A stretch of 64,000 nucleotides of DNA from Tribonema minus (taxonomy: Eukaryota > Sar > Xanthophyceae > Tribonematales > Tribonemataceae): NCBI GenBank assembly GCA_017506865.1, contig JAFCMP010000125.1, forward strand, positions 62,001 to 126,000, read 5' to 3'. A program made the position numbers and the translations under genes. Under the pieces are notes generated by a model, which had not been told where the DNA came from, made no database searches, and was given only the letters and a program-made list of their open reading frames with translations. Shown here piece after piece: positions 3,647 through 58,300 of the stretch. Within the stretch, counting starts at the first letter, position 1. Each line of letters starts with the position of its first letter.

Positions 3647-5713
3647 CTATTGTTGCAATGCGGCATGCGCGATGTCCGCGCCCGCGCTGCCTTCGCCCAC
3701 GGCAGCAGCAGCCGCCGCCGCAGTCGCCGCCCCCGCCGCCGCTGCTGCCGCCGCGTCCTCCGCCCTGCACCGCCGCGCGAACGCCGCCAGGTTGAACACG
3801 TTCCGCCAGACCTGCGCCGCGTCGTACACCACGCCCTCATACACGGGCGCCGCGCGCACGAACCCGTGCCTCTGCCCCCGACCATCCTCCCCCTCCCCCT
3901 CCTTTCCCCCCCCCCCCTCTCCCTCCCCCTCCCCCTCCCCCTCCCCTCCCCCCGCCCCTCCGCATGCGACATGTGGCAACGCTCCGCATGCGACATGTGG
4001 CAGCACCGCGAGGTCCAGGAGGTCCCGCGTCAGCGCTCCGTAGAAGGCCTCGTCCTCCGCCCAGTTCTCGCGAGTGCTGGCGAGCCCAGGGACGCGGTTC
4101 GCCTCCAGCAGCCAGACGCCGCCGGCGGCGTCCGCCAGGAAATCGAGCCCAAAGAGCTCTGCGACGCATGGGGTATGTATACTGGTCAGGTATGTAGGTA
4201 AACTGGTATGGTATATACGTATACATTATTGTGGACGCTGCCGCCGGCGTCCGCCAGGAACTCGAGGCCGGAGAGCTCTGCGACACGCGGGGTATGTATA
4301 ACTGGGGTCAGGTATGTAGGTATACTGTATGCTCATATTATTGTAGACGCCACCGCCGCCGGCGTCTGCCAGGAAGTCAAGGCCGAAGAGCGCTGCGACG
4401 CGCGCGGTACGTACGGAGAAGTATGTATGCTGGGGTCAGGTATGTTGGTATACTGGTGTGATTACGGTACCGTAAGCATGCTGGTCAGCAGGCCCTGCTG
4501 GGTGCAGGTTATGTCAGTGTTGTGGGTATAGTGGTAAGGTACGGTGGGCTGGGCGTGCTGGTCAGGGGTACATGTACATGAAGTGGTCGGGTTGAATAGC
4601 AGTGGGCGGGCTGGTCAGTGGGCGCGGCGCGCGCAGAGCTGTTGCCGACACGGCGCTTGAGGGTCTGCTGCGAGTACGCTCTGCAGCTGGCCATTCACGA
4701 CGCCAACTGCGTGCCGCCGGTATCACTTTGGTCCGTGGCATGGCGTGCATTCAGCGAGCGGCAGCCCAGCACACCCTTTCATCATAACCATTCTGCTGGC
4801 ACATTCGACACGGGAAAAACCTCACAAAGACTTCTTTACCAACGGCGGACGGCTCACCGAAGTGCGCCGCGCTCGCCTGGTGGCGCATCAGCGGCGCCGC
4901 CGCCGCCGCCGCCGCGCCCCACGCCGCCAGCATGCGCGGCCACAGCGCGGGGTGCTCGCGCGGCAGGTCACACGCCGTCTGCGGCCGGAAGCGCTGCGCG
5001 GCAGCGCTGCTGCTGCCGTCAGGCGGCGCCGCGCCGTCCGCCCCTGGCGCCACCGCCGCCGCCGCCGCCGCCGCGCCGCCCGGCCGCTTGCTGAACGCCA
5101 GGTTCGTGAGGTGTATGGAAGGATTGCCGGCGTCGCTTAATGCGTAGGGGGCGCGCGCGCGCAGGACGCACGCCCCCGCGTGCAGCCACGCGCTCAGGTC
5201 GCCGCGCAGCACGCCGAAGCAGCGGAAGTGCGACTTGGCGCCGCCGCAGCGCGGCAGCAGCAGCGGCCGCGCGACGTAGCGCTGCAGCACGTACGCGCCG
5301 CCGCCGCCGCCGCCGCAGCGCGAGAGCTGCGCGACGAGGCGCTGCGCATTGCCGGCGTGCAGCACCCACACGTCGCCGCCGCCGTTGCCGCGCGCCGCCT
5401 TGACGCACCACCAGTCCGGCTCGCGCGGAGGCGCGCCGCGGCAGCGCGCTCTTGCGGCGGCGGCGCCGCTGCTGAGGCTGCCGGCAGCACACGCCGCTGC
5501 GCCGTCGGTGCTGCTGTCGCCGACAGGTTCACGGCTGCCGCAGCGATGGCACGCCGCTGCGCCGCTGCTGCTGCTGTCGTTTCCTTCAGCGCCGCTGCCG
5601 CCTTCGTCGCCGCTGCTGCTGCTGTTGAAAAGTGGGCCCCATCGCGCCTTTGCCCACGCCTCCACGCCGCTGCTGCCCTCCACAAGATGCGACTCCAGCG
5701 CCGGCGCGGCCAT
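3647..5713 (-). CDS. Tubulin-tyrosine ligase-like (TTLL) family protein, two exons
   Basis: Proposed exons are 5713-4858 and 4158-3647, total 1368 nt (455 aa); the joined phase is open. TTL-family enzymes are ATP-grasp ligases that add Tyr, Glu or Gly to tubulin tails. Exon 1 carries WWCVKAARGNGGGDVWVL, the poly-Ala-broken core YVLQRYVARPLLL, the FRCFGVLR stretch and NPSIHLTNLAFSKR. The splice joins ASAAHF to ELFGLDFLADAAGGVWLLEANRVPG, the C-terminal ATP-grasp motif with the acidic metal ligand and the E-x-N pair. The C-terminus is Gly/Glu low complexity followed by VYEGVVYDAAQVWRNVFNL. The start ATG at 5713 is the first in frame; an upstream exon is possible because an acceptor-like site (CGCCGCAG) precedes the frame. 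The single intron holds two extra copies of the exon 2 start. The substrate cannot be predicted. Confidence 0.8.
3962..4001. repeat. Short direct repeat CATGCGACATGTGGCA, two copies
   Basis: CGCATGCGACATGTGGCA occurs twice back to back in the C-terminal coding part of the TTL gene, giving a duplicated LPHVACG peptide. It is probably a local slippage event. Confidence 0.8.
4112..4470 (-). repeat. Tandem repeat spanning the TTL exon 2 acceptor, three copies
   Basis: Three units with a period of about 115-119 bp each contain, on the minus strand, GTCGCAG (acceptor), a variant of the sequence encoding ELFGLDFLADAGG, and a shared intron-derived stretch with GGTATGTA and TCAGGTATGT. Acceptor positions are near 4158 (used), 4277 and 4392. 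Only the first copy continues into the conserved VWLLEANR motif. The copies are diverged but aligned without difficulty. Confidence 0.85.
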
Positions 5714-6835: not shown

Positions 6836-7546
6836 ATGGCTGCGACCTACGGCTACCGCCAACACGATCATCATCGCCTTGAGGAGCAGCAGCAGTATGA
6901 TTACCAGCAGCAACCACAGACGAGACGGTCATCGGAGGCGCAGCAGACTAAAATCGTGGGGAATGGCGCCAAGCGCTGGAACACTGGTGAGATCGTGTCT
7001 TTTTTCAATGACCTGCTGCAGCTGGACTCCGCAGATGCTGCCTCCGAGCCTCTGGCCAACATTAAGGAGAGCAGCAGCGGCTGCTATGCACTCCAGGTGC
7101 TCGATGCCATGTACCCGGGGTGCTTCAGGCTAAAGGACTGCGTCTGGGGCAAGCGCGACGAAGTGCTGCCGTACGAGATCGCCAACAACTACAGGATACT
7201 GCTGGGCGGGCTGCAGAAGGCGGGGGTGCCCCACTCCATCGACATGGAGGGCGTCACGGCGGGCCGTGCCAGCTGCGTCCTGGAGTTCAACCAGTGGCTC
7301 ATGAACCTGGCGCTGCAGCCCCGCAACCAGGACCTGTGCCTGCGCTACGACGCCCCCGCGCGGCGCGCCGCGTTCAAGGCCAGCAACATCTCCATGTCCG
7401 CCGTGCGCAGCGTGGGGCGGCAGGTCGGGCACACGGGCCAGGCGCCGCCCGCGCACGGCGGCGCGCGGCGGCGCATGACGGCGGCGCAGACGAGCGGCGC
7501 GCTGGCGCGCGCGGCGCGCGCGGCGGAGCTGCAGCAGTACGCCGCG

Positions 7547-22085: not shown

Positions 22086-25000
22086 TCACTTGGCCTTGCG
22101 CTTCGGCGGCATCACCTCGTACACGGCCCAGCGCCGGTTGTGCTCCTCCGCGGCGGGCTTCGGCGCGCTGCACGCGGCGTCCATGCAGCCGCACGCGGCG
22201 GCGGCGTCGTCGGCGCACGCGCGCTCGCAGCCGCCGCCCGCCGTCGCCGCGGCCTCGCTCGTGACGGCGTCGAAGACGAAGGCGTGGCCGTCGGCGTCGT
22301 TGCGCGCGGTCGCAAAGTAGCGGCGCCCGAAGGCGCGCGCGTGCTCGTGGATGAGGCCGAGGTTCGCGCCGTACGCGCCGCCGACGTACTCGCGCCCCTC
22401 GAAGTCCGCCTCCGAGTAGTAGCAGCCGACGTAGCGCGCCTCGTACACGGCTTTCTGCGGGGGCGCAGCGGGGGGGGGGGGGGGGGAGGAGGGGTGAGCG
22501 CTTGAGACACGTGCAATGGAATCAAGCTCGAGGCTCACATGTGCACATGCGCACTTGTACATAGGTTTTGAGTCCATGCCAGCACACCTCGACTCCTGCA
22601 CCATTCGCATGATCACGGGTTTGGTGCGCGCAGTGAGAAGCGCTGCGGGGGATACGCTCAGCCGCACAGCGGGAGCTGGCAGGGCGTCTCCCATGGACGG
22701 TTGCTCGCGCGGGGCGAGCGGAGACCTCAGCGTGCATGTGCATGGGCACATAGCCAGGGTGCCAGGCGGCAAGTCCTCAGACGCCAGCATCTGTGGCTGC
22801 GGAAGTTGTGCCAGGGTGGCGCCCTCAAATCACCACCATCCAGCAAGCACCGCAGTCAGTGGTCACACTCATGTATGCCTTCAAAAAAAAAAAGTATGAG
22901 GCGTATCCGCCCGAGAGCGGCGTGGGGGATGGTGCAGGTCAGCGACAAGCCTGCTGCACGTGCGGGGTGGTACAGCTCGGTGTGCGCGATGCCATGCACA
23001 TTGCAAAGAAACATGCGTGCGTGTGTGCACGAGGTTCTCAGCTGGGCGAGTTGCTCAGGTCCCATGGCGCGGCCGCGGAGCGGCGCGGCAGCAGCTGCCT
23101 GAGCGAAGCGTGCCGCTCAAAATCACTGCAGCTTCGGGCAGCAATGACAGGAATCCACAGACAAATCGAATTCACGGACAGCGCGCACGCTGCGCGCCTC
23201 CTGTGCCACGACGGCGGCGCGCCTGGAGCGGCCCGACAGCGAGAAAACAACAGCAGCATTTCGGCAACAGAAGCAGCGACAGAGCTGACGCGCGGCGCGC
23301 CACGCACGGCGCGCAGCAGCGGCACGCACCTTCTACGGCGCGGCGTTGGCGCGCCCGGTGCGGCTTGGCAGCAGCTGCCTGAGCGAAGAACGCTACAGAA
23401 AAACACTGTAGCTTCAGGCAGAAATGTGTGGCCGGGCGGCGAGGAAAACCGCAGCATCGCGGCGGGAAAACAGGACAGGCAAGCAGACTTGATGCACGAC
23501 TTGCGCGCGCACCTTCTGCGGCGCGGCGTTGGCGCGCCCGGTGCGGCTCGGCAGCGGCGGCGCGTCCGCGGCGGGCTCGAGGTTCGCCTGCGGCAGCACG
23601 CGGTAGATGCGCACGAGCCAGTGCTCGCTGGTGAAGGCCTCCTCGAGCGTCGTCAGCTCAAAGAACTTGTTGCCGATGTACTTGTTGCGCACGAGGTCGA
23701 AGCCGCGCCCGCGCCCGGGCCCCATGTCGAGCTCCGCGAACCTGCGCGGCGAAGCAGGGGGGAGGGGGGGGGGGGATTTGTAACCGAACGTCCATACTTT
23801 GAAGTACTTTGAAGTAGAATGTCTTGGGCCGCTGGCGCCTATTTGTAACTGAAAAACTATACTCTGAAGTGCTTCGAAGTACAATGTCTTGGGCCGCCAG
23901 CGGCCCCGCTGAGCCGGGGGGGAGAGGGGGGGAGGGGGGTGTTTGTAATTGAGGAGCTATGCATTGTCTTGGGGCGCCGGTTCTGTCATTTGTGGGTTTT
24001 ATGATAAAGCGAGACAGTCGTAGAACAGTTGATTGACGGTGACTCTGACCAATTATTGTCGCTGTAATGATAAAGTCCTGCAGTACGTTAGCTTGTACGC
24101 GACGCAGTTGTGCAGGGCACATTGGGGTGGTAGTGGGGGCTAGCCAGGTATGAGCATTGAGGTCCGTGCCATAAATGAAATATATGGTGGCACTGTTTGA
24201 CTCCTGGCCGATTGCTGCAGCAGCGGCAACCACAATTATTGGTGGAAGGAATTCAATGTGACGGCGAACCACACCTTGTCACTTAGAGCTCTAAAAACTT
24301 TTGATTCATTTCCACATATACACCCACTGTGCGTATGCACCTGAAGTGCGAGAGCTTGTACGCCAGGCAGTTGTAAATGGCGCATTGATCATGCGTGGAC
24401 GGTAGCTAGGACAACGAATGAAGCTATGCATACATACATAGAAGTATGTGCGTATGCACACGCGCACCGTTAGTACGAGAGCTTGTACGCGAAGCAGTTG
24501 TGCAGGGCACATTGCTTTTGCGAGGCAGGGTAGCTAGGTACACGCATCGAGGTACGCACCTGTAGTACGAGAGCTTGTACGCGAGGCAGTTGTGCAGGAC
24601 CTTGGAGCCCGCCTCGCCGACGTCGTACTGCCCGGTCGCCGACATGAAGTCGTTCTCGCCCGGCATGTCGCCGCCGAACACGCCCGTCGCGATGCGCACG
24701 GGCCACAGGAACTTGTTGATGTCGTCGCTCGGGAACTGCGCGACACCCCCAAAGATGACGAGGACGTAGTCGACGTCGAGCGACTGGAGGATGGGGTACG
24801 CTTCCTCCTCGGTCGACGCGAGCGCGCGCCCGACCGTCGCGATGTGCGTGTTGTTCCACGTGTTGTTGTCGACAATGACGGTGCGGTTCGACATGGCGCT
24901 CATCTGGTACCCGTAGTCCCACCTGGGGGGCGGGGGAAGGGGGGGGGGGGGGCGCGCAGCGGCGGGTGACGTACAGTTAATCAGCTCACATAAAGACTAT

Positions 25001-28000
25001 GGCAGGTGTTTGCACACGCACAGCTCACGGCATGTCTAACAGAACGGCTACGGTACATGCACACTGGCGGCATGTGAATATACAAGGTTTCATCCAGAGT
25101 CGGCCGCACAGTCACGAGCCACGCTGTCACGCGCTGCACATGGGCAGTTGTGGAGCGCATGCTGAGCATGTATCGCTGCGCAAGTCCCGCATCCGCACAC
25201 TACATGCCAGTCAGTGTCTGTCGTCGACCATCAGCGCGAGCCTTGGAACGCTTCGCAGGTACAGCAGGCCTCTGCGGGAGTGCGCAATGCGTTCCACACC
25301 GCTGATTTGCCACCCCTTGTGAGGAGTTGAAGATGCACGTGGCGTTGAGCTTGCATGTAGAGTTGAAGTTCTGCGCGCTACGTCGACGACAAAATGCGCC
25401 CCGTCGCAGCAGCAGCAGAAGAGTCCTGCGCTCACCAGCCCAGTATCCCGGCGTGCGGCGCCGCCTCGCCGTGCAGCCAGAAGGCAAACAGGCACTACGC
25501 AGTAGACTGTGCGTTTTCAGCTAACCCTGACCCTAAGACTCAGAGTAGACAGAGCGGCGAACGAGGTAGGCCAGCCAAGCCCCCCCAGCGCGCGCGCTCA
25601 CCAGCTGAGGATCTTGACGTCCGGCGCTGTGTTGGATTGCAGCCAGTAGGGGTAGACTATGGGCACTACGCAATAGAAGGACGTGAAGTTTTTGCGGAGA
25701 GACTTCGGGCAAGCAGCAGCGGATTGCACCGCTTGTTAACCTGCACAGGCCAAGAACAACTGATCAGGCGCGCAGCTGCAGCAGCGCTCAAGCCGATACG
25801 CAAGCCAAGACCCCCGACGCGCATGCGTGCGCGCGCTTCTCACCAGCTGAGGATCTTGGCGTCCGGCGCCGTGTTGTGGCGCAGCCAGTAGTACGCCTCG
25901 CGGTAGTCGTCGTAGATGAGGCGCCCGCCGTCGCGCAGGCGCTGCTCGATGACGATGCTTGGGTTCGAGTACGCGATGCTGCTCGCGTACGTCGAGTGGA
26001 ACGCGTACAGGCACATGGTCGCCAGCGCGCCCGCCACCACGACGAAGCTCAGCGGCTGGTTCAACAGCCCCGGGGGGCCCCCCTCGCGCGCCCCGCCCCC
26101 CGCGGCGGCGGCGCGCTGCTGCTGCTGCTGCTGCTGCGGCGGCGGCGGCGGCGCGTCGCCGTACGCGATCGCGCCGCAGTAGCGGTGCAGCAGCTCCGAC
26201 ATGGCGACGGCGGCGAGGATGCACGCGATGGGCGCGAGCGTGAGCATGAGGCGCACCATGACGCCCGCAAAGTACCACGAGAGCGTGCCGTAGATGAGGA
26301 CGAAGAGCGCGCCGTCGGTGACGCGGCGGAACAGCAGCAGCAGCCCCACGGGCGCGAGCGGCACGAGCACGTGCAGGTCGAAGAAGAAGGACGTCCACGT
26401 CGTCGGCTGGTGCTCGCTCACGCTCGCGATGATGGGTATGTATTTCGACGCGTACGTCGGGTCCAGCAGCGTCAGCGAGCGCCCCGTCCACTGCACGCGC
26501 CCCGCGAGCTGCAGCGCGACGAGCGCTGCGGCGACGGCGCCCACGAGCGCCGCCGCGGCGCCGACGAGGAGGCGCCGCAGCGCGCGCGCGTCGACCGCCG
26601 CGACCAGGTAGCGCCCCAGCGCGTACGTCTGCAGCGCGACGAAGACGCCGTGCGACGCCGCGCACTCCGCCTGGCGCACGACGTTGAAGCCGACGAAGGG
26701 GACCTGCAGCGGGGGCGGCGGCAGCGGCGGCGCGGGGGGGGGGGGCGGTCGCGTTGGAGAGGGGCGGCATGAGTGACGGGCGATGTGCATGCTTACGTGC
26801 GCGTCGTGAGGGCAGCGCTTGAGACGCAGCGTGAGGCGCGCGACCGCGCACCGCGCGCTGGTGCCGGCGGCAGCGGCAGCCGTGAAGCGCGTGGCGGCGT
26901 GAGGTCGGCAGCTTGACATTCTGCGGCGACGAAGATGTCATGTGAAGCGCGGGTGGCGCGGCGCACACACGGCTATGAGCGTTATGTGAGGGCATCGAGG
27001 ACCTCGGAGTGGGCAGCGCGTGCGAAACACAGCACATGGCGTTGTCACCGACCTCAACGCTTGACGTCATCAGTATGGTCAGCACCGCAATGTGATACCA
27101 AGTGCGTCAGTAGCGCTCTACAAGGCTTCACAAATGGTAAGAAGCGGCCTTCGAGGCCAGAGCTGGCAGCATCGCCTGCTCACGTAATCTCCGAGGAACG
27201 GCGCTTGCTGCCGTGAAGCGCGGCGGCATTGCACGTCAAGCAGCATGCGTCGCAGCAGCGCCCCTCACCTGCATGGCGAGCAGCGAGCCGAGCGCGTAGA
27301 ACGTCGAGTACGCGACGTACAGGCGCGCCGAGTAGCGCCCGCCGACGATCATCGCGATCGTGTAGATGGGCACGATGTTGATGATGAACACGTAGCCGCC
27401 CCACGCGGCGACCATGTAGAAGTAGCCGAGCGCCGCGGCGGCGGCCCACAGCATCGAGCCCGTGTTGACGGCGCGCACCCACAGCCAGAACGTCGCGATG
27501 AGCGCGAAGATCGCGACGCCCTCGTTGTCGTACGAGCCGCCCACGGAGCGCGAGATGTAGCTCGGTACGATCGCGGTGAACGCCGCCGCGAGCAGGCCCG
27601 CGCCGCTGCGCCCCGTCACCTCCGCGGTGAGCAGGTACGACGCGACGGCCGTGTTCGCCGCGAAGAGCGGCGCGAGGAAGACGCACACGTTGCGGATGTT
27701 CACCGTGAAGTTGAGCGCCTGGAGGAGCCAGTACAGGACCGCCGCCGTGAGCATGAGACCGGGGTAGATGGTCCCGCCGATCGTGCGCCCGAGGGGGTAC
27801 CAGCCGCGGTCGTCGAACCAGTCCAGGAAGTCCAGGAAACCCTCCGCCGTCTGCATTTGGGGGGGGGGGGGGGGCGTGCAGAGGGGATTGGACGGAGGCC
27901 GAGGCCGACGTCGCAAGACGGGGTGACTTTGCGCCTGCACTTCAACGGCACCCCAGCAGCTGAGGATTGTCAAAGGAGAAGTTCATCGTGCGCACACGTT

Positions 28001-32368: not shown

Positions 32369-34880
32369 ATGGCTCGCGCTGGCGGCGGCGGTGTAGACTC
32401 AGACAGTAGTGAGAGCGACTGCTGGGAGACTCCAGCCGCAAAGAGGAAACGGCCCAGTTCGGGGGGCTCTGCCTTAGCCTATGGCAGCAGTGATTTGGGG
32501 AACACGACCACCAGCGCCAGCAGCGCATCGCAGCGGTTGCCGATAGCCAGGAAACGCGCTGCTGCTTTGACCTTGTCCACGCTGATGAGGCCACTGCAGC
32601 TGCGTCGGACTGCTCCTCTGTCGACCCCGACGACTACGACTTCGAGTCCCCCCCCGCAAAGAAGTACACCACTAGCAAGGGCAAGGGCAGGGCCGGGCCG
32701 GCTGCCGGCGGCAGCGCCAAGGCATCGCCTGTTGCAGTGGATGTCCCTGGAGGCGCTGCCGCCGGCGCGAGCGACCCACGCAGCCCTCATTTCGAAGCTC
32801 CGTGGCTGAGAAAGATGGCCGCACTGATCGATGGGAGAGAGGCGGCCCAAGTCAAGATGAGCCAGGACCAACCGGACCTGCTGCCTGGCGAGGAGTTCCG
32901 CTGCGTGTTCGCCCACAAGCAGAACTGCCTGCATACCAACATCCTCCCCCACGACTGCCCGGCCGACGTGTACTTCGGATCGAACTTCAACCGGTTTTAC
33001 CGCATGGCCGAGGGCAAGAAGCGGTGGATCTCAAGCCTCACTCTACCCTATGGCGGGGTGTACCCGGAGGTTGGCTTCAGCTGGAAGAGGAGCCAGATCA
33101 CCCCTCAGACGCACCTCGTCATGGCCGCCATGTTCATTGGGCCAGCCCCCGAGGTCAGTGAATTCATGTAAGCGATCTGCTGGTTATGCTGTTGGAAGTT
33201 TAACATGCCAGTTGCAACAGCCACTTCGACAGGCGGCCGCTCACTTTGATTCTCACATCCACCGCCTCATCGCAGGTTCATGATGTGGACCATATCAACA
33301 GCACCAGCGGTCAGGATGCTCCAGACACGTACACGCGCCTCCTCCAGCCGTGGCAATACAACTTCGCGACAAACCAGCGGTACCTGACCGAGAAACAGAA
33401 CCGCACCAGGCCGAAGGCCATCCCGCAGGAGCAACGCGCGCAGCCCCGGCACCCTGCATACCGCAAGCCGGAGCCCGACGACCCCTGCATCGTCGGCTCG
33501 CAGTCGTTTGGAAGGACGTGCCAGTGCCGCCGGATGGACCTTGGCGCATCGAGCTCAGCAACACGGGGCACGCCCGCTACAAGGACTCCAAGAAGCTGAT
33601 CAACCAAAACCCCTACAACGAAGGCCACTACCAGGTAGTCTTCGCCGAACGGCGGGAGGACGGGACGGGGAAGCGGCAACTCACACGATCCTTCAGTGTG
33701 CACGTCATGGTGTACCAGCTTTTCCGCAGCGACCGCCCGGAGGATGGCCAGCCGCCCATGCAGTTCAAGCCTGGCACCACACGGCCGGTGTCGTCGCATG
33801 TGGTCCACCACCGCGACGGTGTGCCCAGCAACAACGACATCAGCAACCTGACCTACATCACGAGAAAGGTGCGTCCACTGGGAGGTCCATGAGGAAATGC
33901 ATAAATGGTGTTGGACAGATGTGATGTATGCACTTCTATTTGAAAATCTGAGATCAGTCTGGATGCACTTTCAAGCATTGAGAGATCATGCAAGTACATT
34001 TGTGGTAGAAACGAATCAATTGTGCGCCAGAGAACATGTGAAGTACAAAATGCATCATAAGTGTGAGGTACAAAATTGCGAAGCGAAATTAATAAGAGTA
34101 CAAAATGCATCAGTGATGCACAATGCATGTACTTTCCTGTTGCCAGATTGCAATGCAAAGAATCATGGGACCAACGTGCTCAGATCCATTTGCAGCCCGT
34201 CGATTCACATTACATAAGCACAGCTTTGCTGTGCATTCAGTTGCCGTGGTATGTGTAGCTGTTATTGATGACTTCGGACAGTGTTGCAGTTTTCACGACA
34301 TGGTGCGCTCACATAGCTCTGCAATTGTTGCTCATTGCCCCAGAAAAACGCACGCGCCGGCAACGGGGGAAGGCCACGCAGGAACGCGTCGGCGCTTGGC
34401 GAAGGCATCTACGAACGGCAGGACAGGTGCAGCGCACGCTTCAGAGCCAAGATCAACATAGACGACACGAATGAAGACGGCACTACAAGGACAATCCCCC
34501 ATACCAGGTGTTTCCAGACCCTGAAGGAGGCGCAGGCATGGCGGAGGGAGATGCAGATCACCCATGGCTATGGTCTTGAAGCTCACACGCACGGCGGCGG
34601 CGGCGGCGCCATGAGCTCTAGCGGCGGGGGAGCCAGTGGGGGGGGGAGCGCTGAGGGCGGCGGCGGCGGCGGCGGCAGCAGCGGTGCCGCCAGCAGCAGC
34701 CCCGGAGACGCTGGCGGCAGCGGCGGCGGAGCAGGTGGTGTAGCCCGCGGGGGCCCTGGAGAGGCCGGCCGCGGCGGCGGCGGCGGTGGCAGCAGCGGCG
34801 CAGCTGCTGCTGGCGCCGCAGCGCCCGCGAGCAACGGGCGGCGCTGTTGGATGGTGGAGCGGGGGTGGCGGCGCAGGTGA
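32369..34880 (+). CDS. HNH / NUMOD4-HNH / AP2-like DNA-binding protein, frames disturbed
   Basis: Starts at ATG 32369 with an acidic Ser-rich leader. The conserved part reads in a different frame from about 32600 (DDYDFESPPAKK), so an unplaced intron or lesion lies between. Segment 1 ends GPAPE at 33153, spliced to 33276 as EVHDVDHINST, then YNFATNQRYLTEKQNRTR: an HNH-like D-H-x-N...N pattern. Near 33500 the frame shifts by one base. Segment 2 has WKDVPVPPDGPWRIELSNTG (NUMOD4-like), then HHRDGVPSNNDISNLTYIT, a clear HNH motif, with a donor at about 33868. After a GCCCCAG acceptor (about 34343) comes KNARAGNGGRPRR and an AP2-like GIYERQDRCSARFRAKI ... FQTLKEAQAWRREM. The tail is Gly-rich. This layout is typical of homing-endonuclease-derived genes; it may be a decaying selfish gene or a domesticated regulator. 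Confidence 0.6.
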
Positions 34881-35140
34881 TGTAGCGCGCGGGGGCCCTG
34901 GAGAGGCCGGCCGCGGCGGCGGCGGAGGCGGCGGCAGCGGCGCCGCAGCGCCTGCGAGCCCCGGCGGCGCGCTGTTGGATGGTGGAGCGGCGGCAGCCCG
35001 GCGTGACGCAGCGGCGGCGGCGCGGCGTGACGCAGCAGCGGGCAGGGCGGCGTGGCGTCGCGGCGGGTAGCGCAGCGTGGCGTGACGCAGCAGCGGGCAG
35101 CGGCGTGGCGCGTGCGGCGTGATGCAGCAGCGGCGGCGCA
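34738..35140. repeat. GC-rich tandem repeats at the 3' end of the HNH gene
   Basis: A block of about 145 bp containing CGCGGGGGCCCTGGAGAGGC occurs at about 34746 and 34887. It duplicates the Gly-rich tail, and the two copies are in different frames. Right of it, 34998-35140 holds short repeats built from GGCGTGACGCAGCAGCGGG. Confidence 0.8.
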
Positions 35141-36223
35141 GCGCAGCGTTACGCGGCAGCACCACGGCAACTATGGCGCAATGGATCTGCAGCAGTGCCG
35201 CTACTGCAGCAGTCGCGCGTTGTTGTGGTGGAAGCAGCAAAGCATGCGGCCGCAGCAAGTACTGCATCGGCCCCGCTGCAACTTCTGCCTGCCAGCGCTG
35301 GACAATTGGGGTGAACCCACAGTGAGATTTTGGGCACTGGAGCTTTTGGGGGTGACAATGTGTGCACATTTGAATTGTTGAGCAGTCAGTGTTTGGCAGC
35401 CGAGCACTACGGTGTTTTGGCAGCAGCTGTAGCACTGTCATCTTGCTGACAAGATAGCGCTGGTGCCGCCTTGGGTGTTTAGCTTGAGAATTGGTTGACC
35501 GACCTGGAGCCACATGCTGGCACAGTGCAGGTACACTTGAAAGACTTGTGGGATTGCGTAGACGTGTGTGTATCTGCACTCACGGGCATTCATGCCATGG
35601 CAGCAGGGATTGAGCAAAGAGTAGATTTGAGATGGCATCACACATGATCCAGGGTGCGCATGTGCAAATGCAACTTCAAGTCAAGACCAAAATGGTGTTC
35701 TGTGCCAATGTATCTGCACATGCATGCAATTCATGAAGTTAGCATGCCCGCTCAACAGCATTGATGTCAGAATTGATGCACTTGCACTGATGACTGTGGC
35801 GTGGAGTGGTTCTGTCGCACACAGTTTGACAACATCTGCAAGTTTGCGGACATGCATGCTTTGATTTATAATGCTGTTGTGGTCAGCTGACCATTCGACG
35901 CCATGTTCGCATATATATAACCTTGTCATTGACTCAGAGGTGCATTCACAGCAGTGCTCTCCTGCATTTATTTATAATAAATGAATGTGAAAGCAGCAGG
36001 CTCTATCATGTGACGGTCGTTTGGACAAGCATGTATTTCATAAACATTAGACAGCTGTGGTCAGAATACATTCATGCACTCATACTCATTGGCATGAACT
36101 CATACTCATGGCTTTGCAGCGAAGTTCTGGTACACCACCCAAGAGTTGAACTTGAATTCATTATTAGCGTGGCATTGCTGACTAAGCGCGGGACGCAGCC
36201 GTCTTACCCAACAGCTCACCAGC
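34881..36223. other. Intergenic region before the plastid-protein gene
   Basis: After the GC repeats, 35200-36200 is AT-richer and shows no supported exon. It should include the promoter of the gene at 36224. A TATATATAA stretch at 35911-35920 is the only TATA-like word, about 300 bp from the start codon, so its role is uncertain. Confidence 0.4.
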
Positions 36224-39200
36224 ATGGCGCCCACCAACATCCTCGCCACGGTAGTGCTCGTGGCTTGCGGAGCACATGGCTTCGCCCCAAGTGCCGCACT
36301 ACCCGCGGCTCTGGCGCGCCCCGCGACTAGTTCCCTCAGCATGGCCTACATGTGAGTACGATCATACGTGGCCGGCAATCGCGCTGTGGCAACTGGACTC
36401 TCCTCTGCTCTGACTTGGTAGCATCTCCTTTTTGCTTTCGGCCTCACCATGGTGCACCCTGTTCTGCAGCCCCGATGGCCTCACCCCAGAGCAGTGGAAA
36501 GTCATCAAGGAGAAGGAGCAGGAAAAGGCTAGCAAGAACCTGGGCAGAGTGGGTGCGACGAGCTTTAAATCCCGCTCGTTCCAGGTACGTGCTGCTGCTC
36601 TTCTGACCCTGCTGCGATGGCTTGCTTCTGAAACGGTGGCCTCCTGTATGGTTATGCGATTGCATGTAACAAGCGACACTTGCGTGCATTTTGCGTGCAG
36701 TATTGCGTGCGCTTAGGAGCTGTAGGTATGTCATTACGCATTGCTATGCAAACCATCACGATTAAAGTGAGTTGGGTGTATCGAGCTCACGCTGCCTAAG
36801 AAGCTCTGCTGAAATTAGCGAGACAGCAAGGGAGCTGTGCATGTTTGCAATGCTTCCCTTCACCCACGCCAAACGGCCACGGCATCTCATTCTGCATATG
36901 AATCAACAGCACTTGTGCAGTGGCAAATCTACTCGAGCAGGAGAGCCACAAGCCACAGCGAGCCGCACAACAACTCAACGTGCATGGCAGTCGCTCCGTT
37001 CGCTGCCACTGAGGGCGCTGTAGCAATGCCTTCATCATCAACATTCTCTGCGCAGTGCTGTGGGAGCGAGCCATGTGCTCGTGTGTCCGGTTTTGGCTCG
37101 CATGTGCCACCTGCAGACAAGTTGTTGATACTCACAGTCGCTTGTCCCTCTGCCGCGTGTGTCGCTGTTCACTGCGCTGTTCTTCCGTGTGCAGGCTTGG
37201 CAGGAGGCGATGGAAAGAGGAGAAGGTGAGCGGGGGTATTGTAATTTGCCTCTAGGTATCTCTACAAAAAAACGGGTGCTGCAGGAGTCTGGTTTACTGC
37301 TGCAAATTCAGTTCAGGACAACATTGCTTAAGTGTTGTGGCGATTTCTAGGCAGCGCTCTCTTAAAGCCCGTCGCACAGGCCCTCCTGACGCTTCGCACA
37401 GTGTCCAGCGTCGCCCCTGCTTCAGCACCCCTTTAAGCGCTTCACCTTGGAGAAATTTGGCTCAGCACTGCGGTTACGGTTCATGTTCACATCAGTCAAT
37501 AAGTGCTGCAACCTCACACGTAGTGCTCTCTCAAAACCTATTGCACACCTCACACGGTGTTCAGCGTCGCCCCTGCTTCAGCACCCCTTTGGTACTTTGG
37601 TGCTTAACTCAGGATAGGCATGTACCCCGCGAGCTTACCTCAGTACATCCGACAGTGAATCTGTATCCATATGAAAACGAATCAAAAGATCGTAGAGCTC
37701 TAGGTGACAACACATATATTTTTTGTGCCTTGCATCGGGCTACATGTTTGAGTGTCAGTAGGAGTGGTCTGCGAGCTGTGCCAGCCATGTGGACGCTGCC
37801 GCTTCGCTGCTGCCAGCGAGCAGCGCTGCGAGCGCTCCAGTGCTGCCCCCCTCAACACGATGCAGCGCTGGCACATGCAGGTGCGGTCGGCAGCAGCTGC
37901 CGCTGGGTATGCACCGCGAGCAGCTTCTGATGCAGTGACTGTGAAGCACAACACGCACGGCATGCCCGGCAGCGATTGTACCGCGAACGATTCCTAAAGT
38001 ATTTACCCGTTTACGCGCACAGAACACACATGGCATGCTCTGAATTGAGTGTATCACCACCAACGGACCTTTTTCAATCTAGTCACCCATGTATGCGCAC
38101 CGCCGGTGGTGTGTTATGTATACGCGCAGGCGGTCACCTGTTCCCCGTGGACCCCGTTAAGGTCAAGCGCGGCGAGATCCCCCTGAGCAAGGTGCCCTAC
38201 ATGCAGCGCGGCGGGTCGTGGGACGACGAGGACCTCGTCAAGAAGGTACAAATGTGGCCGTGATGGGTCCTGCTACAACTGTTGGTCAGAGCACCTTGGA
38301 CCTGAGTTTGTGTCAGAGTGAGGGTTAGGGTTAGGGTCAGGGTCAGGGTTAGGGTTGCGCGCTGTTTCAAGTGCGCGGCGCGTATGGCTGCAATGAGTCC
38401 TGCTATGACTGGTGCTTAGAGTGCCTTGGCCTCCGGGTTTGTGTCAGAGTGCGGGATAAGGTTAGGGTTAGGTTTAGCGCGCTCTTTCAAGGCAGCGCGC
38501 GCTGGCTCGGAGTGGTGCGCGGCGCCTACGGCTGTCATGAGTCATGCTATGACTGTTGGTTGGACTGCGTTCGCCTATGTTGACTCGGCCAAGGCGTCGA
38601 CGTAATTTCCGCTAGCGTCGAAGCGCGACTCCATCGTGGGCGGCGCCGGCGTCCGTCAGCTTTTGACGCGAAGACCCAATTGCGGTGCCGAGCTGTTGCA
38701 TTGGCGCGTCAGCGCGAGCGACATACGCCCTACGCTTTGTGTCAGGGTTAGGGTTAGGGTCAGGGTCAGGGTTAGGGTTAGGTTAGCGCTGTTTAGAAGG
38801 CGGCGAGCGCTGAGTGTGATTGCGAGTGAGTGCTGCGGAGCTGCTGCGATAAGCAAGACTAGGGTAAGGGTTGGCTGAGGTCTGGTCAGGGTAGGGTTTG
38901 GGTTCGGTGACGATTAGGGCGGAATCAGCCCCAGGCTGACATCAGTTGCCCACCGAGTGCTCAGTGAGGCGCACGCCCGAATGCACTTCACGATAGCAGT
39001 GGTGCTGCTTTGAATGAAGCCAATGCAAGGCGGTGCGGTGAGCAGTGGGCGCATGTGCAGGGTTTTCGCAGCAGCTGAACGCGTTTGTTTTAAAGTTTCA
39101 AGCTTTACCCCCCCCGCATCTGCGTTAATGCTTTATGAGCATCGCTCATCTCCTAACGCACCGACCTGATCGGGACTGTGCCCTGGCAATCTGCACACGT

Positions 39201-40949
39201 GCCACAGGAGAAGGGCATCAAGAAGAAGGAGTGGAGCCCTCTGGACAAGGCATACGCTACCGGCGGGGAGCGCGCGAACCAGGTGCATACATGTGGCGCG
39301 TTTGCTGCATACAGAAATAGCGCATGTTCGCTGCATACATGCATATATTCACTCAGGCTTATGGGCTCATGTACAGGGGGAAACGCTAGTCTATGAGCTT
39401 GCGGCATGTGCAATCTCTACGCCGCTGCCCACCATCACGTGCAACGGCCACAGAATGCACTGGCTCCTGCAATGCTGCCGTGCGCAAGTTGTAGGTCATG
39501 TTGTTTAACAAAACGTTTGAATAATGACGCTGAGATTGTACCCCAGTGGAGTGCGAAGCCATGTACGGGTCTACACACACTGGTTTCAGGAGAATGGCCC
39601 TCCCTGGCTAGTGAAGTCCACAGTCTGTCGAACTGCAATCACAGCGAGCAGCTGTACAATGGGAAACTCGTAATGTGCGGTATTCAGGCCTCTAGCGTGT
39701 GTGATGTCAAGCAATCATACAAGCCGAGCGCGGGTGCTACCGTTCGTGGCGGTGACGCCCTTAGGCAGCGTCACATCACGAGCGCGGCCTGCACATCATA
39801 CAAGTCTACACAGCGCAGGTGCTGCTGGTTGTGGCGGTGACGCTCCCAGGCGGCGTGACGTGGCAGCACGAGCGCGGCCTACGTTTCTTACGCTCTCCGA
39901 CCTCGCCTGCGCTACTTCAACTGAGACTTCAACTGAGACTTCAACTGAGATTTCAGTTGTGGAGAGTTGCCTGGCACGCCAGCGTAATCCGGAACGTGCC
40001 GTCAGCAAAGCTGTTGGGCACAGCGCTAGCCCGCAGAGCAGCCACTGCTGGCACTTTGACGCGCACACCAAAGCTGCATGCGCGGAACAATCAATCCGCC
40101 CATGTTAGTTATCGAAGCGTTGACAGCACTGCTTGTTTTGATGATTGCCATGCCCCCCTTACTTAAACTGCAGTATTACTGTCAAACATCTCGCGCTGCA
40201 GCAGCAACTTGCCCTGATGTTGCTGATTTCATGTGTTGCTGGTTCCATGTCCACGTACAAAGAAAGCTGCCATGTAACCGTCATAAGCTGATCTCATGCA
40301 ACCGCCGCGTCTCTCTGCAGTCAATCAACATCAAGGTGTTCATCTTGTTCAGCTGCGCGGTATTAACCTGCCCCAACGTCGCTGACCTCATGTCACCACA
40401 TACCAAGAAAGCTGCCATGTAACCCTCATGAACTGATTTCATGTAACCGCCGCATCTCGCGTCCACAGTCGATCAACATCTTTGGGCGCGGCGCCAACCT
40501 GCCCTGGAATGGCCGGGCCGCATTCAAGGACCCCAAGGCCATTGACCCCCTTAAGGAGCAGGCCAAGTGGAAGCGCGCCACCTCTGTGAGTGCGCGCTCT
40601 TGTCCTCTACACGTACTGTAAAGTGCAGCGACCGATCGCTGGTGATGAACCGTAATGTATTGCCATTGTCCCCCTGCGTTTTGATGGCTGCAGAAGCAGG
40701 AGATGCAGCTATGGGCCTGTCAACCACATGTACATGTGTCTCATACGCAAGGTAGCTATAGCTGATTGCCGCTGCTGCCCCCTTGCCCCCCCCCCCCCCC
40801 CCCCCCCCCCTTGCCCAGCCGCTCCCCCCAACAAGATGGCCCTCGCACGCGTCGAGAAAGAGAAGGCCAAGCTGGAGGCGGAGCGCCTCAAGAAGGAGCA
40901 GGCCCTCAGCCCGACGCTCAAGGAGAACAAGCGCTTCTTCCTCTTCTGA
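36224..40949 (+). CDS. Plastid-targeted protein of unknown function, seven exons
   Basis: Exons: 36224-36351, 36470-36584, 37195-37225, 38130-38245, 39208-39282, 40469-40585, 40836-40949; sum 696 nt (231 aa), all in phase. The N-terminus (APTNILATVVLVACGAHGFA) is a signal peptide with a GFAP cleavage region as in secondary-plastid proteins. The mature part reads YIPDGLTPEQWKVIKEKE, VGATSFKSRSFQAWQEAMERGEG, HLFPVDPVKVKRGEIPLSKV, PYMQRGGSWDDEDLVKK, LDKAYATGGERANQ, INIFGRGANLPWNGRAAFKD and a charged helix ending KENKRFFLF. I recall similar proteins in diatoms and haptophytes but cannot name a function. The exon 7 start is chosen for phase; the better-looking CCCAG site at 40818 would break it. 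Introns are large and full of repeats. Confidence 0.75.
36890..37363 (+). repeat. Segmental duplication copy B (native position, contains exon 3)
   Basis: Near-identical to 30872-31342. Here the 31-nt exon (37195-37225) lies in the right place between exons 2 and 4, so this is the probable source copy. Confidence 0.95.
37353..37610 (+). repeat. Tandem repeat in intron 3 of the plastid gene
   Basis: GT.CAGCGTCGCCCCTGCTTCAGCACCCCTTT occurs at about 37401 and 37559, preceded in both by GCTCTCT.AAA and a CGCACA.TC-like stretch. The offset is about 160 bp. Confidence 0.8.
38230..38560 (+). repeat. Repeats of the exon 4 donor region with telomere-like inserts
   Basis: The used donor (CAAGAAG then GTACAAATGTGGCCGTGATGGG) is followed by two diverged copies near 38371 (CAAGTGCGCGGCGCG...ATGAGTCCTGC) and 38513 (GGAGTGGTGCGCGGCGCC...ATGAGTCATGC). 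The first two units carry GTTTGTGTCAGAGTG followed by AGGGTTAGGG-type repeats. Period is about 126-142 bp. Confidence 0.7.
38316..38910 (+). repeat. Interstitial TTAGGG-like repeats
   Basis: AGGGTTAGGGTTAGGGTCAGGG-type arrays, cut here into shorter words, occur at about 38316-38356, 38455-38475, 38742-38788 and 38864-38905. TTAGGG and TCAGGG units are mixed. They match a TTAGGG-type telomere repeat, but lie inside an intron. Confidence 0.9.
39895..39960. repeat. 12-bp minisatellite ACTTCAACTGAG
   Basis: Three units of ACTTCAACTGAG plus a diverged fourth (ATTTCAGTTG) lie in intron 5 of the plastid gene. Confidence 0.9.
40160..40520 (+). repeat. Tandem copies of exon 6 acceptor edge of the plastid gene, three copies
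   Basis: The used acceptor at 40468 (CCACAG then TCGATCAACATC) has upstream copies at 40320 (CTGCAG then TCAATCAACATCAAG) and 40173 (CTGCAG then TATTACTGTCAAACATC). Each is followed by CC.AAC.TGCCC-like exon sequence, and GAAAGCTGCCATGTAACC lies at 40262 and 40407. The period is about 147 bp. Confidence 0.9.
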
Positions 40950-49000: not shown

Positions 49001-50915
49001 CAGGCCGCATGTCAATCTCCTGCAGCGGCGCGGCGCGCGCGTGTTGCGCAGCGGCGAGGGGCAAGCGCTCGCAAGCGTCGCGCAAGAGTCACGAGCGCAC
49101 CTACTGAGCTGCGCGTCGATCCGCTGCAGCGCGGCGGCGTCGCTGCGCGCGCGAGGGGCGAGGGTGCGCGGGCGTCGCGCAAGGGTCACGAGCAGCGCAC
49201 CTGTCGCGCATGCGGAAGTCCACGTCGATGTGCCAGCGCGCCATGTGCTCCAGGATGTGCAGGTCCTGCACGCTGTCGAGGCGCCCGACCTCCGCGTTAA
49301 ACCCCTGCATCCGGTACTCCTGAAAGATCTGGCGCAGGCGGTTCTGCAGGAACGAGACGAGCAGCGCGTTGGGCTCCTCCTTGGCGGCGGCGGCGTTCTC
49401 CATGCGCGGGTCGTTGTCGCGCGCGCCGGGCACGTAGCGGCGGATGGACATGACGTTCGCGAGCAGGTAGTCGTGCGTCCGGCGCAGCCACGCGACCGTG
49501 CGCACGTCCTTCGGCACGTCGAGCTTCTTGCCCGCGGCGAGGCGGCGGTACTCGCGCACGCACATCTCCTCGAGCGCCCACGGCGTCCCGTCGGGCTTGA
49601 CGTGGCCGGGCGCGGGCTTCTCCAGCGCCGACACGCGGTTCGTGTTCACGCGGTCCGCGATCTCGTCAGCCGCGCACATGGCCTCCAGGAGCCCGTTGAA
49701 AACGGTCGCGTCCTGCAGCGCGAGCTGCTCCTGCTTCTCGTCGCCTCCGCCGCTGCCCCTGCCGTTGCTGTTGCCGGCGCTCTGGGCGGCGTTTGCCGCC
49801 GGCGCGATCGCCCTGACCACCTGCCGCTGTTGCTGCTGACGCGCCGCCACCATCTGCTGGCCGGCGCCGCCGCTGCCGGCGGCGGCGGCAGCAGCAGCAG
49901 TGGCGCCCAACGTGGCGGCAGGCAGGCTTTGTGGCGAGGCCCTGCGCGGCGGCAGCGGCGGTGGGGATGCCTGCTGGTTCTGTATGCCGCCACCTCCGCT
50001 GCCCACAAACGCTGGCGCCTGCTGCAGCGCCGCTTGCATGGCTGCCTGGGCACCCGGGTCCATGCCGACAATACGCGACGCCCCGCCGGGCGCGCGCACG
50101 GCGTTGGCCGCAGCGCCGCCGCCGCCACCCTGGGCCTGGACGCCTGCGCTGCCGAATGCTGCGGCTGCCGCCGGCGGGCTCGCTGCTGGCTGCCGCTGTC
50201 CGAACACGCTCCCCCCTGCGCTCCCCCCCGCCGCAGGTGCCGCCGGCGCTGCGAAGGGGGCCGTTGCCTGGTCCTGCCGAGCGAACACGCCGCCTCTGCC
50301 AAACTTGGCAGGACCGCCACCAAATCCCACCGCGCTGGACCCAGCGCCAGGCGCAGCTGGCTGCCCAAAAGCGCCGCGCGCTGCGCCGAACGGCGGAGGC
50401 GCACCCTGCCCTGGCGGCGCAGCGAGACTGCTGCCGAAGGCACCGGCGCCGAAGATGCCGGCAGCAAGCTGTTGCTGCGGCGGCGGAAAGGAAGCGGACG
50501 GCGCGCCAAAGCCTGTAGGCGCGAGCGATCCTTGCGACGTCGTAGGGCGTCCAGAGAAGGCAGATGCGCCGCCCCCGCCGCTGACGCCTCCAGCTCCAAG
50601 CGGCTGACTCGCACCGAAGCCGCCGAACGCATTGCTGGCGCCAGGAGCGGCTGGGAGGCCGAAGGCGCTGTTGGGCCGAGCAGGGCTGGATTGTCGTTGC
50701 TGCTGCGTGCCAAACGGCGGAACTGGCGGCTGCCTGCTAAAGGCATTCGGCTGAAATCCGGTGCCACCTTGCGGAGCCGCTTGTCCGCTGCCACCGCCGA
50801 AAGCAGGAGGCTGTGCCGCTTGACCGAATCCGCCAAACGCGAAAGGACCTTGTGATCCGAGGCCTTGTTGTCCGAAGCCTGCTGGCGGCTGCTGCTGCTG
50901 CTGCTGCTGCTGCAT
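43006..50915 (-). CDS. GANP/SAC3-type mRNA export factor with FG repeats, five exons
   Basis: Exons: 50915-49201, 48613-48414, 47728-47373, 46705-44586, 44179-43006; sum 5565 nt (1854 aa), in phase. SAC3/GANP is the scaffold of the TREX-2 complex that couples transcription to mRNA export at nuclear pores. The N-terminus is poly-Q, then about 300 residues of FG/GF-rich nucleoporin-like sequence (AFGGFG, GFGQQG). The SAC3 domain runs from KPDGTPWALEEMCVREYRR through VPKDVRTVAWLRRTHDYLL, ALLVSFLQNRLRQIFQEYR, HILEHMARWHID to the second helical half in exons 2-3 (MMKTLRELYLVG, YFVLRDLP, FVIVAYRERRWAQFF). Exon 4 encodes a long charged coiled coil (QRRADEDAKRQAQLEAERKA) and a GANP-like C-terminal part. 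The protein ends in Gly/Ser/FG-rich sequence. The FG domain plus C-terminal extension resembles animal GANP more than yeast Sac3. Confidence 0.85.
46706..47372 (-). other. GANP intron 3
   Basis: A 667-bp intron. It contains a C tract at 47198-47212 (a G tract in the sense strand) and no exon. CTTCAACTTGAG lies near 47058. Confidence 0.6.
48239..48470 (-). repeat. Tandem copies of GANP exon 2 donor edge, three copies
   Basis: The coding end of exon 2 (plus-strand GGCAGGTCGCGCAGCACAAA at about 48432) is copied at about 48324 (GGCACATCGCGCAGCACACA) and 48242 (GGCAGGTCGCGCAGCACAAG). Offsets are about 108 and 82 bp. The copies lie in the intron downstream of the exon in transcription. Confidence 0.85.
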
Positions 50916-55300: not shown

Positions 55301-58300
55301 ACAGCGCTCGCTGCTGGCGTGCATGACGCATGCACGCTGTTTGCCGTGCTGCCTGCTCAGCCGCTTATGCTCGACGCGCATGCTGACGCGCCAGTCTTCG
55401 CTGCTGCCGTTTCGTGACTTCGTAACCGCCGGCGGCAGGTGGCGCTGGAGTTCCACAACATGCGCGAGGCGCACAGCGGCCTGTTCTTCAGCCGTGTCGT
55501 CAACAAGGTCGTCTACGCCGGGTCGGGTGAGTCAACGCGCCAAGCCAGTGCTCAGCAGCGCAGCTCAGTAATGCGCGCGCCCGCTGCAGTGAACAAGCCG
55601 CGAACGCGACAGCGATGCGGTCGATCCGCTTGCGCAGCACATTGCTCGTTGTGATCCGCCCTGAGATACCGACCTAGGGTTTTCGTTCTCAGTGCGCTTC
55701 GCATCGCGCCCGCGTCCCGCACCCACCGTGTCGTCTGACACACCTGTCTAGTGAACAACGCACTGCCTGCAGCGCTCAACCCCCCCGCCCCCCCCCCCTC
55801 TGCCCGCTCCGCCCCAGGCCTCCGCAACATCCTCTTCCCCTCCTGCCAGGAGCTCGCGAGCCACGTGGAGATCTATGTCGACGGCGAGCGCGTCGAGCTG
55901 CCGCCCGACACGGAGTCCGTCATCATCCTCAACATCAACTCGTACGCGGGCGGCTCGCGCCTCTGGACCCCCGAGGGGGCTGAGGGGGGGGCAGGGGGCA
56001 GCCCCGGAGGGGGGGGCGGGGGGGGCGCGTCCCCCGTCGCCTCCGCGCCGTCCGCGCCGCGCCTCCTGTTCCGCGACGACGCGCTGCTGAGCGGCGGGTC
56101 GGACAGCAGCGGCGGCGGCAGCGGCGCGCGCGCGGACGACGACCGCTCGGACGACAGCGGCGCCGAGTCGGCGGCGTCGTGGGGCAGCGGCGGCAGCGCG
56201 GAGGCGCGGCGCATCGCGGCGTTCGGCCCGAGCCGCATCGACGACGGCCTGCTGGAGGTGGTCGCCGTGACGGGCGTGCTGCACCTCGGGCGCATCCAGG
56301 TGAGCGCTGCGCGGGGGCGGCAGCGGTGGCAATGGCGGCGGCGGCGGCAGCGGCGGCGGCGGCGGGAGTTTTGGCGGCTCATCGTTGTGCCCTGTAGTCA
56401 TTGTTGCGGTTGAAGCACGGTGGTGGGCGCGCTCCACTGCGCGTGTGGAGCGGTGTGGCAGCAGCGCTGGACGTCCGCCTGCAAGCGCGCTCGTGCGCGG
56501 ACGCTCTGCTCCCGTCGCTCTGCTCTGGTGGCCTCATGACGCGCTGGTGGTGGCGGAGGGCGTCGGCCCCTGCGGTTGGTGTGCCGCAATCGGGCCTGCA
56601 CTTCCTCAGGTCACGGTTGCGTTCGGTCGTCGCTCAGCATCTTTGTAGGGCTACTGGCGTCCCATTGCTGACGGTTCCCATTGCTGACGGTTCTGTTGCA
56701 TCGCTCCGCTTTTGCGCACCAGGTCGGGATCGGGTCCGGGTACCCTGTGGCGCAGGGGAAGGAGCTGCGTATTCGCACCACCAGAACGCTGCCTATGCAG
56801 GTGCGCCACCCTTTCCGCCCCCTCATGTTCCGCTTGTCATGATGTGAATCACTCACCTGTATGTAGCAATTGTCTGCGAGCTTTTTGCAGCTAGCTATTG
56901 GTGCAGGCCCTGTGGCCGCGGCTGCTGCCAAAGTGACTTTGTAATGAGTGCGCGGTTGCTCCAACCGCTCACGCGTGTCGAGGGCTTGCTCTGCAGCGTG
57001 GTCACCCCTCGCAGCCCCCTCCCCCCCCCCCCCCCCACCCCCACCCCCAATGATGGGCCCTATGATGGGCACGTGGCAGAAAGTTGTTCCGTACTATGCA
57101 CTGCTGCCAACCCCAAGCCTATCATCGGAATGCCGCACACATGGAGCTTATACCTAGGCACACTCACAATCTGTCAACAACAGTCGCTCATCAGCGTGAA
57201 GTTCAAAAAAGTGCTATTGCATGGCGATACTGTACTTTCTTGAAGTACCAAGGCACTTGAAGTGGGCGTCAAACATGTCGCTTTACTGGCATGATACGCG
57301 TGCCGCGCGCCTGCGCGCCGTCATCGTCATCAGGTGGACGGCAATAGGGACCTTGATCTGGTGACATTTGTTGAAGTTCAATAAAACATTCCTACGGTAG
57401 CTGAGCGCGCATCTGTTGTGCCAACTCCAACTCCCACAGGTTGATGGCGAGCCCTGGCGGCAGGCGGCCAGCGACATGGTGGTGCGGGCGCATCCGCAGG
57501 CATCCATGCTGCGGCCGTCGACGCCAGAGGAGGGACGCCTTCGCGACAAGATAACCTTCCACGTAAGCAGAAAAAGTGTTGTATGTTACAGGGGGCATGA
57601 GCGCACGACCCCTCCCCCCTCATGTTTCATGTGTAGGCTGCGGCAGCAACACATCAAGTGTTCAGTAGACAAGTTTGACTCCATCCGCGGCCGTCGACGC
57701 CAGAGGAGGGGCGTCTGCGCGACCAGATAGCCTTCCACGCAAGACAACATGACATTATGCTACTGTATGCATGATACGTTACATGCATACTTGCATAATA
57801 CGTTGCATGCATACTTAGCAGTTTGTAACAGAACAAGCACACCTTCCATGTAAGCCAGAGAGACGCTGTCCCCGGCAGGGGGCACGAGCGCAGGCCCTTC
57901 CCCCACATGACGCATGTGTATGTCGCGGCTGCAGCAAAACTTGACGTGTTCCGTAAACAAGTTCAACTTCATCCCGACCGTTCACCTCACTCTGTCAAAC
58001 AACCAACAGTATCAAAGTTCACGGCAGCCTGAAAGGCCCGCGTGCTGCTGGCCGCGGTCATCTGCGGCACACGGCGGCAGCTCGCCGCAGTCCTGCATGC
58101 CCCGCAACTCTCTTGTGCGACAGCCACAGCATAGCATGTCAAACAGATGCTCAACTGGTCTGGTGGAGACCTCCTGCATCGTCATTATACCTAACAATAT
58201 GACATGCACCATGCACCAAACAGAATGAGAAAAACAGGGTTCTAGTTCAGGAGTTGATGCGATTTTGGGTCTTGTGCACGATGCGCAAACGGAGACCCAG

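Follow-up and report, generated by a model that had tools for sequence, protein, structure and literature searches.

Where intron sequence comes from, and what causes introns to vary in length, is an open question, and it is raised by a stretch of 64,000 nucleotides (hereafter the window) from the alga Tribonema minus (contig JAFCMP010000125.1, positions 62,001 to 126,000; genome of 158 Mb in 554 contigs). According to an original prediction for this stretch, eight exon-intron junctions in five genes are accompanied by decayed tandem copies of the exon edge, splice site included, in the neighbouring intron. Junction copies of this kind were confirmed in the present analysis and extend beyond the window, to twenty 10-kb stretches taken at fixed coordinates on six large contigs and to antenna-protein (LHC) loci. 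They are very probably best explained by head-to-tail duplication across the exon-intron border, with neutral decay of the spare copies.

Exons and introns were assigned by a hidden Markov model restricted to GT-AG introns and self-trained on the window, the twenty stretches and the LHC loci. The genome has 92 antenna-protein domain matches, of which the 12 best-ranked loci were examined for local repeats; PDB matches of the antenna proteins, judged by molecule name, are mostly to proteins of red-plastid algae, as fits a photosynthetic eukaryote. The splice signals learned by the model are CAG/GTGAG-like for the donor and a C-rich GCAG for the acceptor. Fifteen proteins were predicted for ten of the random stretches; ten of them were scanned with Pfam, and eight gave matches, two of these below the curated cut-off.

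Occurrence and orientation of the junction copies

At least one intron-side copy of the exon edge together with its splice site was found at 42 of 185 junctions. In the random stretches, a decayed copy is present in the adjoining intron at 30 of the 112 predicted junctions. The window contributes 7 of 65 junctions, two of which are doubtful (a coding repeat at 34.9 kb), while one, the DGK donor, was missed by the gene finder, set by reading the sequence and added by hand (1 of the 185 junctions); for the same reason, the DGK array was scored as intron-internal in the test for edge placement. Five of the eight junctions in the loci L019 and L042 have copies, these loci having been chosen for that property. 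Weak exon calls may inflate the rate in the random stretches; with stricter calls, the exon-edge rate was 18/112 and 13/75 (donor plus acceptor, all loci of that test). A stricter test for partner copies at the random junctions gave 27/112 on the intron side and 1/112 on the exon side. The doubtful repeat (window positions 34722-35143) is GC-rich, has a period of about 142 and lies in a predicted coding region in which the predicted splice sites look doubtful; on account of its base composition and gene model it was left out of the family statistics, which removed 2 of 42 families and left 40. Among these, the nearest spacings are 92-242 bp (predicted period 80-240 bp), and an array comprises two to six versions per border.

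The position of the copies was followed with 40-bp tiles, each compared with the adjoining 1.2 kb of intron in the window and the random stretches (low-complexity tiles excluded, as also in the orientation test and the control edges below). Matches were obtained for the last 40 bp of the exon in 29 of 140 cases, for the next 40 bp in 8 of 117 and for tiles 80-200 bp inside the exon in 1 of 294. On the intron side, the first tile matched in 4 of 107 cases and deeper tiles in about 3-7% each. When exon-edge tiles were compared with the intron of a randomly drawn junction, no match was found (0/140), nor did tiles from the middle of exons have copies (0/42).

All copies are direct, those of donor edges being found only downstream and those of acceptor edges only upstream. 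Of the 78 donor edges, 20 have a direct copy of the exon-edge 40-mer within 1.2 kb on the expected side, as have 12 of the 80 acceptor edges (32/158 in all), while neither inverted copies in either flank nor direct copies in the wrong flank were found within 1.2 kb at any of the 158 edges. The same asymmetry is seen in the local repeats of at least 50 bits in the window and the random stretches together (264 kb), of which 163 are direct and one is inverted. This pattern is predicted by contiguous head-to-tail duplication over the junction and not by transposition, retro-copying or the capture of DNA during repair. In the last of these, broken ends would copy DNA from the vicinity and insert it nearby, in tandem or otherwise; primate proximal duplications attributed to repair, with a mean of 162 bp and a few cases of partial exon/intron sequence, lend it some support (PMC2671141, in its accessible text), as do two young copies (the L022 donor and one L030 donor), which have 93-94% exonic identity and no visible homology in the intron part. 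Given the absence of inverted and wrong-flank copies beside 32 direct ones, and given that an inverted case (ACSBG2) is described in the accessible part of the same primate study, repair capture is very improbable as the source of the copies. Complete units of exon part and intron part are repeated in L024, L019, L028 and L030, and homology of the intron part is detectable in 47 of 79 copies. Together with the codon-position asymmetry and the paralogs with and without arrays described below, the full units, the orientation and the side strongly support the predicted tandem duplication over the boundary in which one copy is kept coding.

The sequence of events might thus be pictured as follows. 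The genome would undergo frequent head-to-tail duplications of roughly 90-250 bp, and where a unit spans an exon-intron border, splicing would keep to the exon-attached site, by which the protein is preserved. The spare exon edge with its splice site would then be intronic and free to decay neutrally, the intron having gained one unit, and recurrence at one border would give rise to the observed arrays. Presumably, the site next to the exon is the one that is spliced. The cause at the DNA level may be replication slippage, or staggered nicks or breaks that are filled in during repair.

The eight named junctions of the window

Self-BLAST of the window gave 25 local direct pairs. At each of the eight named junctions, the 80-bp junction window outscored every one of 300 dinucleotide-shuffled versions of the adjoining intron, so that local self-similarity of the junctions was confirmed throughout; the smallest margins were 30 vs 28, for the plastid-gene donor, and 42 vs 37, for GANP. 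With the last 40 bp of the exon alone, all 300 shuffles were exceeded at five junctions, namely the TTL acceptor, the STT3 exon 4, 5 and 6 donors and the DGK donor. For the plastid-gene exon 6 acceptor, whose copy carries a short exon piece, the signal was weak (p = 0.023). There was none at the two remaining junctions, the plastid-gene exon 4 donor (p = 0.44) and the GANP donor (p = 0.36), at which essentially intron sequence alone is repeated. The statement that each unit includes part of the exon is therefore valid for six of the eight junctions at most. The identities of TTL (in both flanking exon frames), STT3, GANP and DGK are supported by Pfam. The name "plastid gene" is that of the original prediction, and the Pfam scan covered the other four genes. 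All arrays described in the following were delimited by self-BLAST and, with the exception of the further STT3 exon 6 remnant, by reading; the used STT3 donors are additionally based on the gene model, and the TTL array, the GANP and plastid-gene exon 4 arrays, the plastid-gene acceptor copy and the used DGK donor on the shuffles.

TTL, STT3 and GANP are encoded on the reverse strand. The TTL acceptor array extends over 4115-4460, with the used acceptor between 4158 and 4159; two copies consisting of exon head and intron tail (about 4234-4352 and 4353-4460) follow at spacings of about 115-119 and 234-250. In STT3, the end of exon 4 with the used donor (25829-25891, exon edge 25844) has an intronic copy with 87% identity at 25588-25649 and a second, more decayed one at 25428-25506. 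The end of exon 5 is present in four versions in sequence, three of which are followed by GT: the used donor (24559-24598, exon edge 24560), copies at 24472-24514 and 24333-24387, and a third copy at 24077-24124 in which the GT is lost. For exon 6, the used donor (23505-23561, exon edge 23513) is accompanied by a copy at 23322-23378, in which CAG is changed to TAG, and by a further remnant at 23065-23146, which pairs with 23347-23426. In GANP, the intron start is repeated with a period of 104 at 49011-49202, beside the used donor (exon edge 49201), the exon part being barely recognisable.

The plastid gene and DGK are encoded on the forward strand. The intron start after exon 4 of the plastid gene is repeated with a period of 130 at 38255-38576; the repeat starts 10 bp inside the intron, and the exon edge is not recognisably copied. 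The used acceptor block of exon 6 (40389-40480, exon start 40469) has a copy at 40246-40332 which contains CAG and about 12 bp of exon. The DGK exon end with the used donor (57503-57567, exon edge 57562) is followed by a copy at 57680-57743 (88% identity, GT changed to GC) and by the intronic part of a third copy at 57876-57981, which pairs with 57589-57694. Period, copy number, the occurrence on both donor and acceptor sides and the duplication of the splice sites had been correctly described for most of these cases. Two imperfect arrays of telomere-like TTAGGG are located in the window at 38321-38356 and 38744-38786, and four perfect tracts of at least three units are found in the random stretches (L023:4519, L024:8752, L027:7381 and L039:1805), while TTTAGGG tracts of at least three units are absent from the same 264 kb. 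A 97-bp tandem repeat with two copies lies between predicted genes at 59227-59411.

The DGK donor copy is followed by about 105 bp of extra sequence (57744-57850) with the short near-repeat CACCTTCCA on its flanks, perhaps an inserted element. This near-repeat at the splice site of the copy speaks in favour of introner-like or transposon insertions as the source of the arrays. The copies, in turn, each correspond to their own exon, with a single orientation and on a single flank. When 3 kb of one gene with an array, outside the window, were compared with the genome, 43 matches were listed among the best candidates scored. They comprise the query, a single neighbouring copy of the array, pieces that overlap exons (70-74%) and short tracts; for this one gene, and among these candidates, no sequence dispersed in many unrelated genes was found. 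Insertions of this type are thus extremely improbable as the source of the copies. The original prediction had set the arrays apart from dispersed introner elements, which is supported by orientation and location and by the one genome-wide search; its further claim that each family is private to its junction stands for the gene that was searched.

Decay of the copies, paralogs and probable intron growth

The copies differ from their exons by 2-27% (exonic identity 0.98-0.73), and the spacers differ between copies, so duplication during assembly is an unlikely origin. GT is kept in 39 of 45 donor copies and AG in 32 of 34 acceptor copies. At the first, second and third codon positions, exon and copy mismatch in 8.6, 8.9 and 18.3% of cases, respectively. 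The changes at positions 1 and 2 can be assigned to the intronic copy and the surplus at the third position to synonymous change in the exon, as expected for a constrained exon beside a neutrally decaying copy. Where the lineages are separable, changes setting all copies apart from the exon are found at 0.6, 1.7 and 6.3% of the three positions, and changes in single copies at 7.5, 6.8 and 12.1%. Divergence had been predicted to rise with distance from the used exon; only a weak tendency is seen (15 families for, 7 against; sign test, p = 0.13; within-family slope, p = 0.02).

That the copies are themselves functional, as decoy, recursive or alternative splice sites under selection, would be in line with the retention of GT or AG in 71 of 79 copies, with splice scores that equal or exceed the one at the used site (26 of the 45 donor copies, 12 of the 34 acceptor copies), and with an exonic part that is better preserved than the intronic one. 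The third-position excess in single copies, 90 synonymous changes of 234 where 61 are expected, and stop codons in only 4 of 55 indel-free copies (8.3 +/- 2.4 under position-blind change) also point in this direction. However, positions 1 and 2 are equally affected in the comparison of exon and copy, and the third-position excess there fits change in the exon lineage; the synonymous excess would also arise if the exon itself changed from one duplication to the next, which is how we read both this excess and the scarcity of stops. Indels in the exonic part of 23 of 78 copies, mean splice scores below those of the used sites (3.2 against 5.3 for donors, 4.2 against 6.7 for acceptors) and an even distribution of spacing modulo 3 (14, 15 and 11 families) further argue against function. 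Selection for splicing is thus improbable, and judged from the sequence, constraint on the copies would be weak at most. A reading of the copies as cassette exons was discarded, as partner splice sites at their exonic end are not enriched and, if anything, lie below background.

Paralogs with and without arrays were found among the LHC genes. L042 has three junction arrays, two at acceptors and one at a donor, while its paralog L041, with exons about 90% alike, has no local repeat. Arrays are likewise present in L011, L017 and L019, and the paralogs L010, L016 and L009 are without any at 50 bits; L011/L017 and L010/L016 represent the same segments as the L042/L041 pair, and L019/L009, with exons 86-88% alike, constitute a second pair. 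At a looser threshold, one weak pair each appeared in L010 (68%, 113 bp, spacing 447) and L016 (87%, 30 bp, spacing 938), neither of which looks like a junction array. The introns of L041 and L042 share little beyond the exon edges, so that the individual duplications cannot be reconstructed at base level, and L041 may have lost its arrays rather than L042 having gained them. L041 and L042 are the two copies of a duplicated segment with a pair of LHC genes in divergent arrangement, and the donor position of one exon is shifted by about 10 bases between the two. The LHC locus on the 23.7-kb contig C296 agrees with part of C490 in every base over 3411 bp (L013 and L014), which makes C296 a redundant contig or the result of a recent duplication.

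Several observations weigh against border duplication with neutral decay. The copy rate is lower in the window than in the random stretches, and eight of the 12 best-ranked LHC loci are without a local repeat, while four have one at 50 bits (the pair in L018 was counted irrespective of its position relative to a junction); L013 and L014 are identical, which leaves 11 distinct loci. The exon calls are predictions of a gene finder that was trained on the same sequences. The exonic part of the copies is nearly always shorter than 90 bp, which uniformly distributed breakpoints mispredict (Kolmogorov-Smirnov test, p = 2e-6). Furthermore, the copy-copy identity is 0.62 in the intronic and 0.78-0.82 in the exonic part of the pairs, with a null value of 0.55, and 13 of the 31 copies with an exonic identity of at least 0.90 have no significant homology in the intron part. 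We attribute this weak likeness to frequent large indels in introns and to the exonic part having served to find the copies. Conversion by the exon, or selection, was considered as a cause of the better-kept exonic parts; the codon positions and the retained full units fit neutral decay with indels, although gene conversion may play some part.

Whether the duplications are directed to the borders is a separate matter. Among the 83 arrays, the edge-placement test used the 26 that lie between confident exons in introns no longer than 2.5 kb, and 20 of them touch an exon edge, compared to 8.9 +/- 2.4 under random placement. This excess could also arise if tandem duplication were uniform and edges merely stayed recognisable for longer, the exon keeping a reference copy, a variant that is compatible with border duplication and is a plausible account, if somewhat short of probable. 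It agrees with the even background of intron-tile matches in the random stretches (80/1322 at distances of 46-606 bp), with a detection bias of up to about twofold expected by reasoning from the longer visibility of edge duplications, and with the edge excess not being significant at an identity of at least 90% (6/10, p = 0.08). On the other side, exon-edge tiles matched in 25 of 95 cases in the random stretches, which is 4.3-fold the intron rate, and breakpoints in the exon do not lie beyond about 90 bp (exonic part of 15-89 bp in 39 of 40 families). Stop-codon edges (0/10) and start-codon edges (0/5) have no copies, in samples too small to decide. The edge excess and the confined exonic part may hint at a process linked to the border, or else at longer pseudo-exons being selected against, and a junction bias of duplication is suggested but not proven. 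We only tentatively consider, as a doubtful extension, that borders are hotspots of tandem duplication via chromatin, transcription or splicing, with units reaching 30-90 bp into the exon and about 100 bp into the intron, and that introns have largely grown from their own ends.

Array-bearing introns have a median length of 1134 bp (n = 22) and the others of 798 bp (n = 40; Mann-Whitney test, p = 0.02), where longer introns also offer copies more room. The predicted lengthening of introns by arrays is supported in this respect and consistent with the data, the cause being not proven; through border duplication, introns would grow measurably. The creation or sliding of introns, also envisaged in the original prediction, would be a further, conjectural consequence; in the families that were read, the copies lie inside an intron. 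Since the exon is a preserved reference copy, the duplications can be counted and placed in time, and an array is a time series of those at one border. If this were true genome-wide, it would provide a natural experiment on the choice of the spliceosome among near-identical consecutive splice sites and on the growth of introns without transposable elements.

Relation to known routes of intron change

Tandem arrays have reportedly been associated with human introns (Zhuo et al. 2007, a likeness judged by title alone). Among the matches listed in the open literature, judged by titles and the beginnings of abstracts, no recurrent junction-spanning arrays at such a frequency are described. Introner elements, as presented in the accessible part of PMC9860276, are dispersed copies that create new introns. 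They add intron sequence with splice sites, as do the arrays of the alga, but they are dispersed, whereas the algal copies are local and match their own exon. The primate proximal duplications (Pace et al. 2009; PMC2671141, accessible text) are short and local and sometimes include partial exon/intron sequence (4 of 824 donors), in which they resemble the algal copies; they are not necessarily tandem and include the inverted case, in contrast to the strictly direct and flank-specific copies found here.

The closest likeness is to intron gain by tandem genomic duplication (Gao and Lynch 2009; Hellsten 2011; also Lehmann 2010, PMC2891723), in which, according to the excerpted text of PMC3443670, an exonic segment containing AGGT is duplicated and a new intron is born. 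Common to both is that a local tandem duplication carrying splice signals alters the structure of the gene and leaves the protein unchanged, and the duplications of the alga are likewise direct and adjacent. A duplicated AGGT serving as donor and acceptor of a new intron was not found in the families read, each of which duplicates either a donor or an acceptor. In the cases outlined in these sources a new intron arises, whereas in T. minus an existing border is duplicated, repeatedly and at many borders, and the intron would lengthen. What is seen in many of the sampled loci is very probably intron growth by tandem duplication of the border, a variant of the known tandem duplication.

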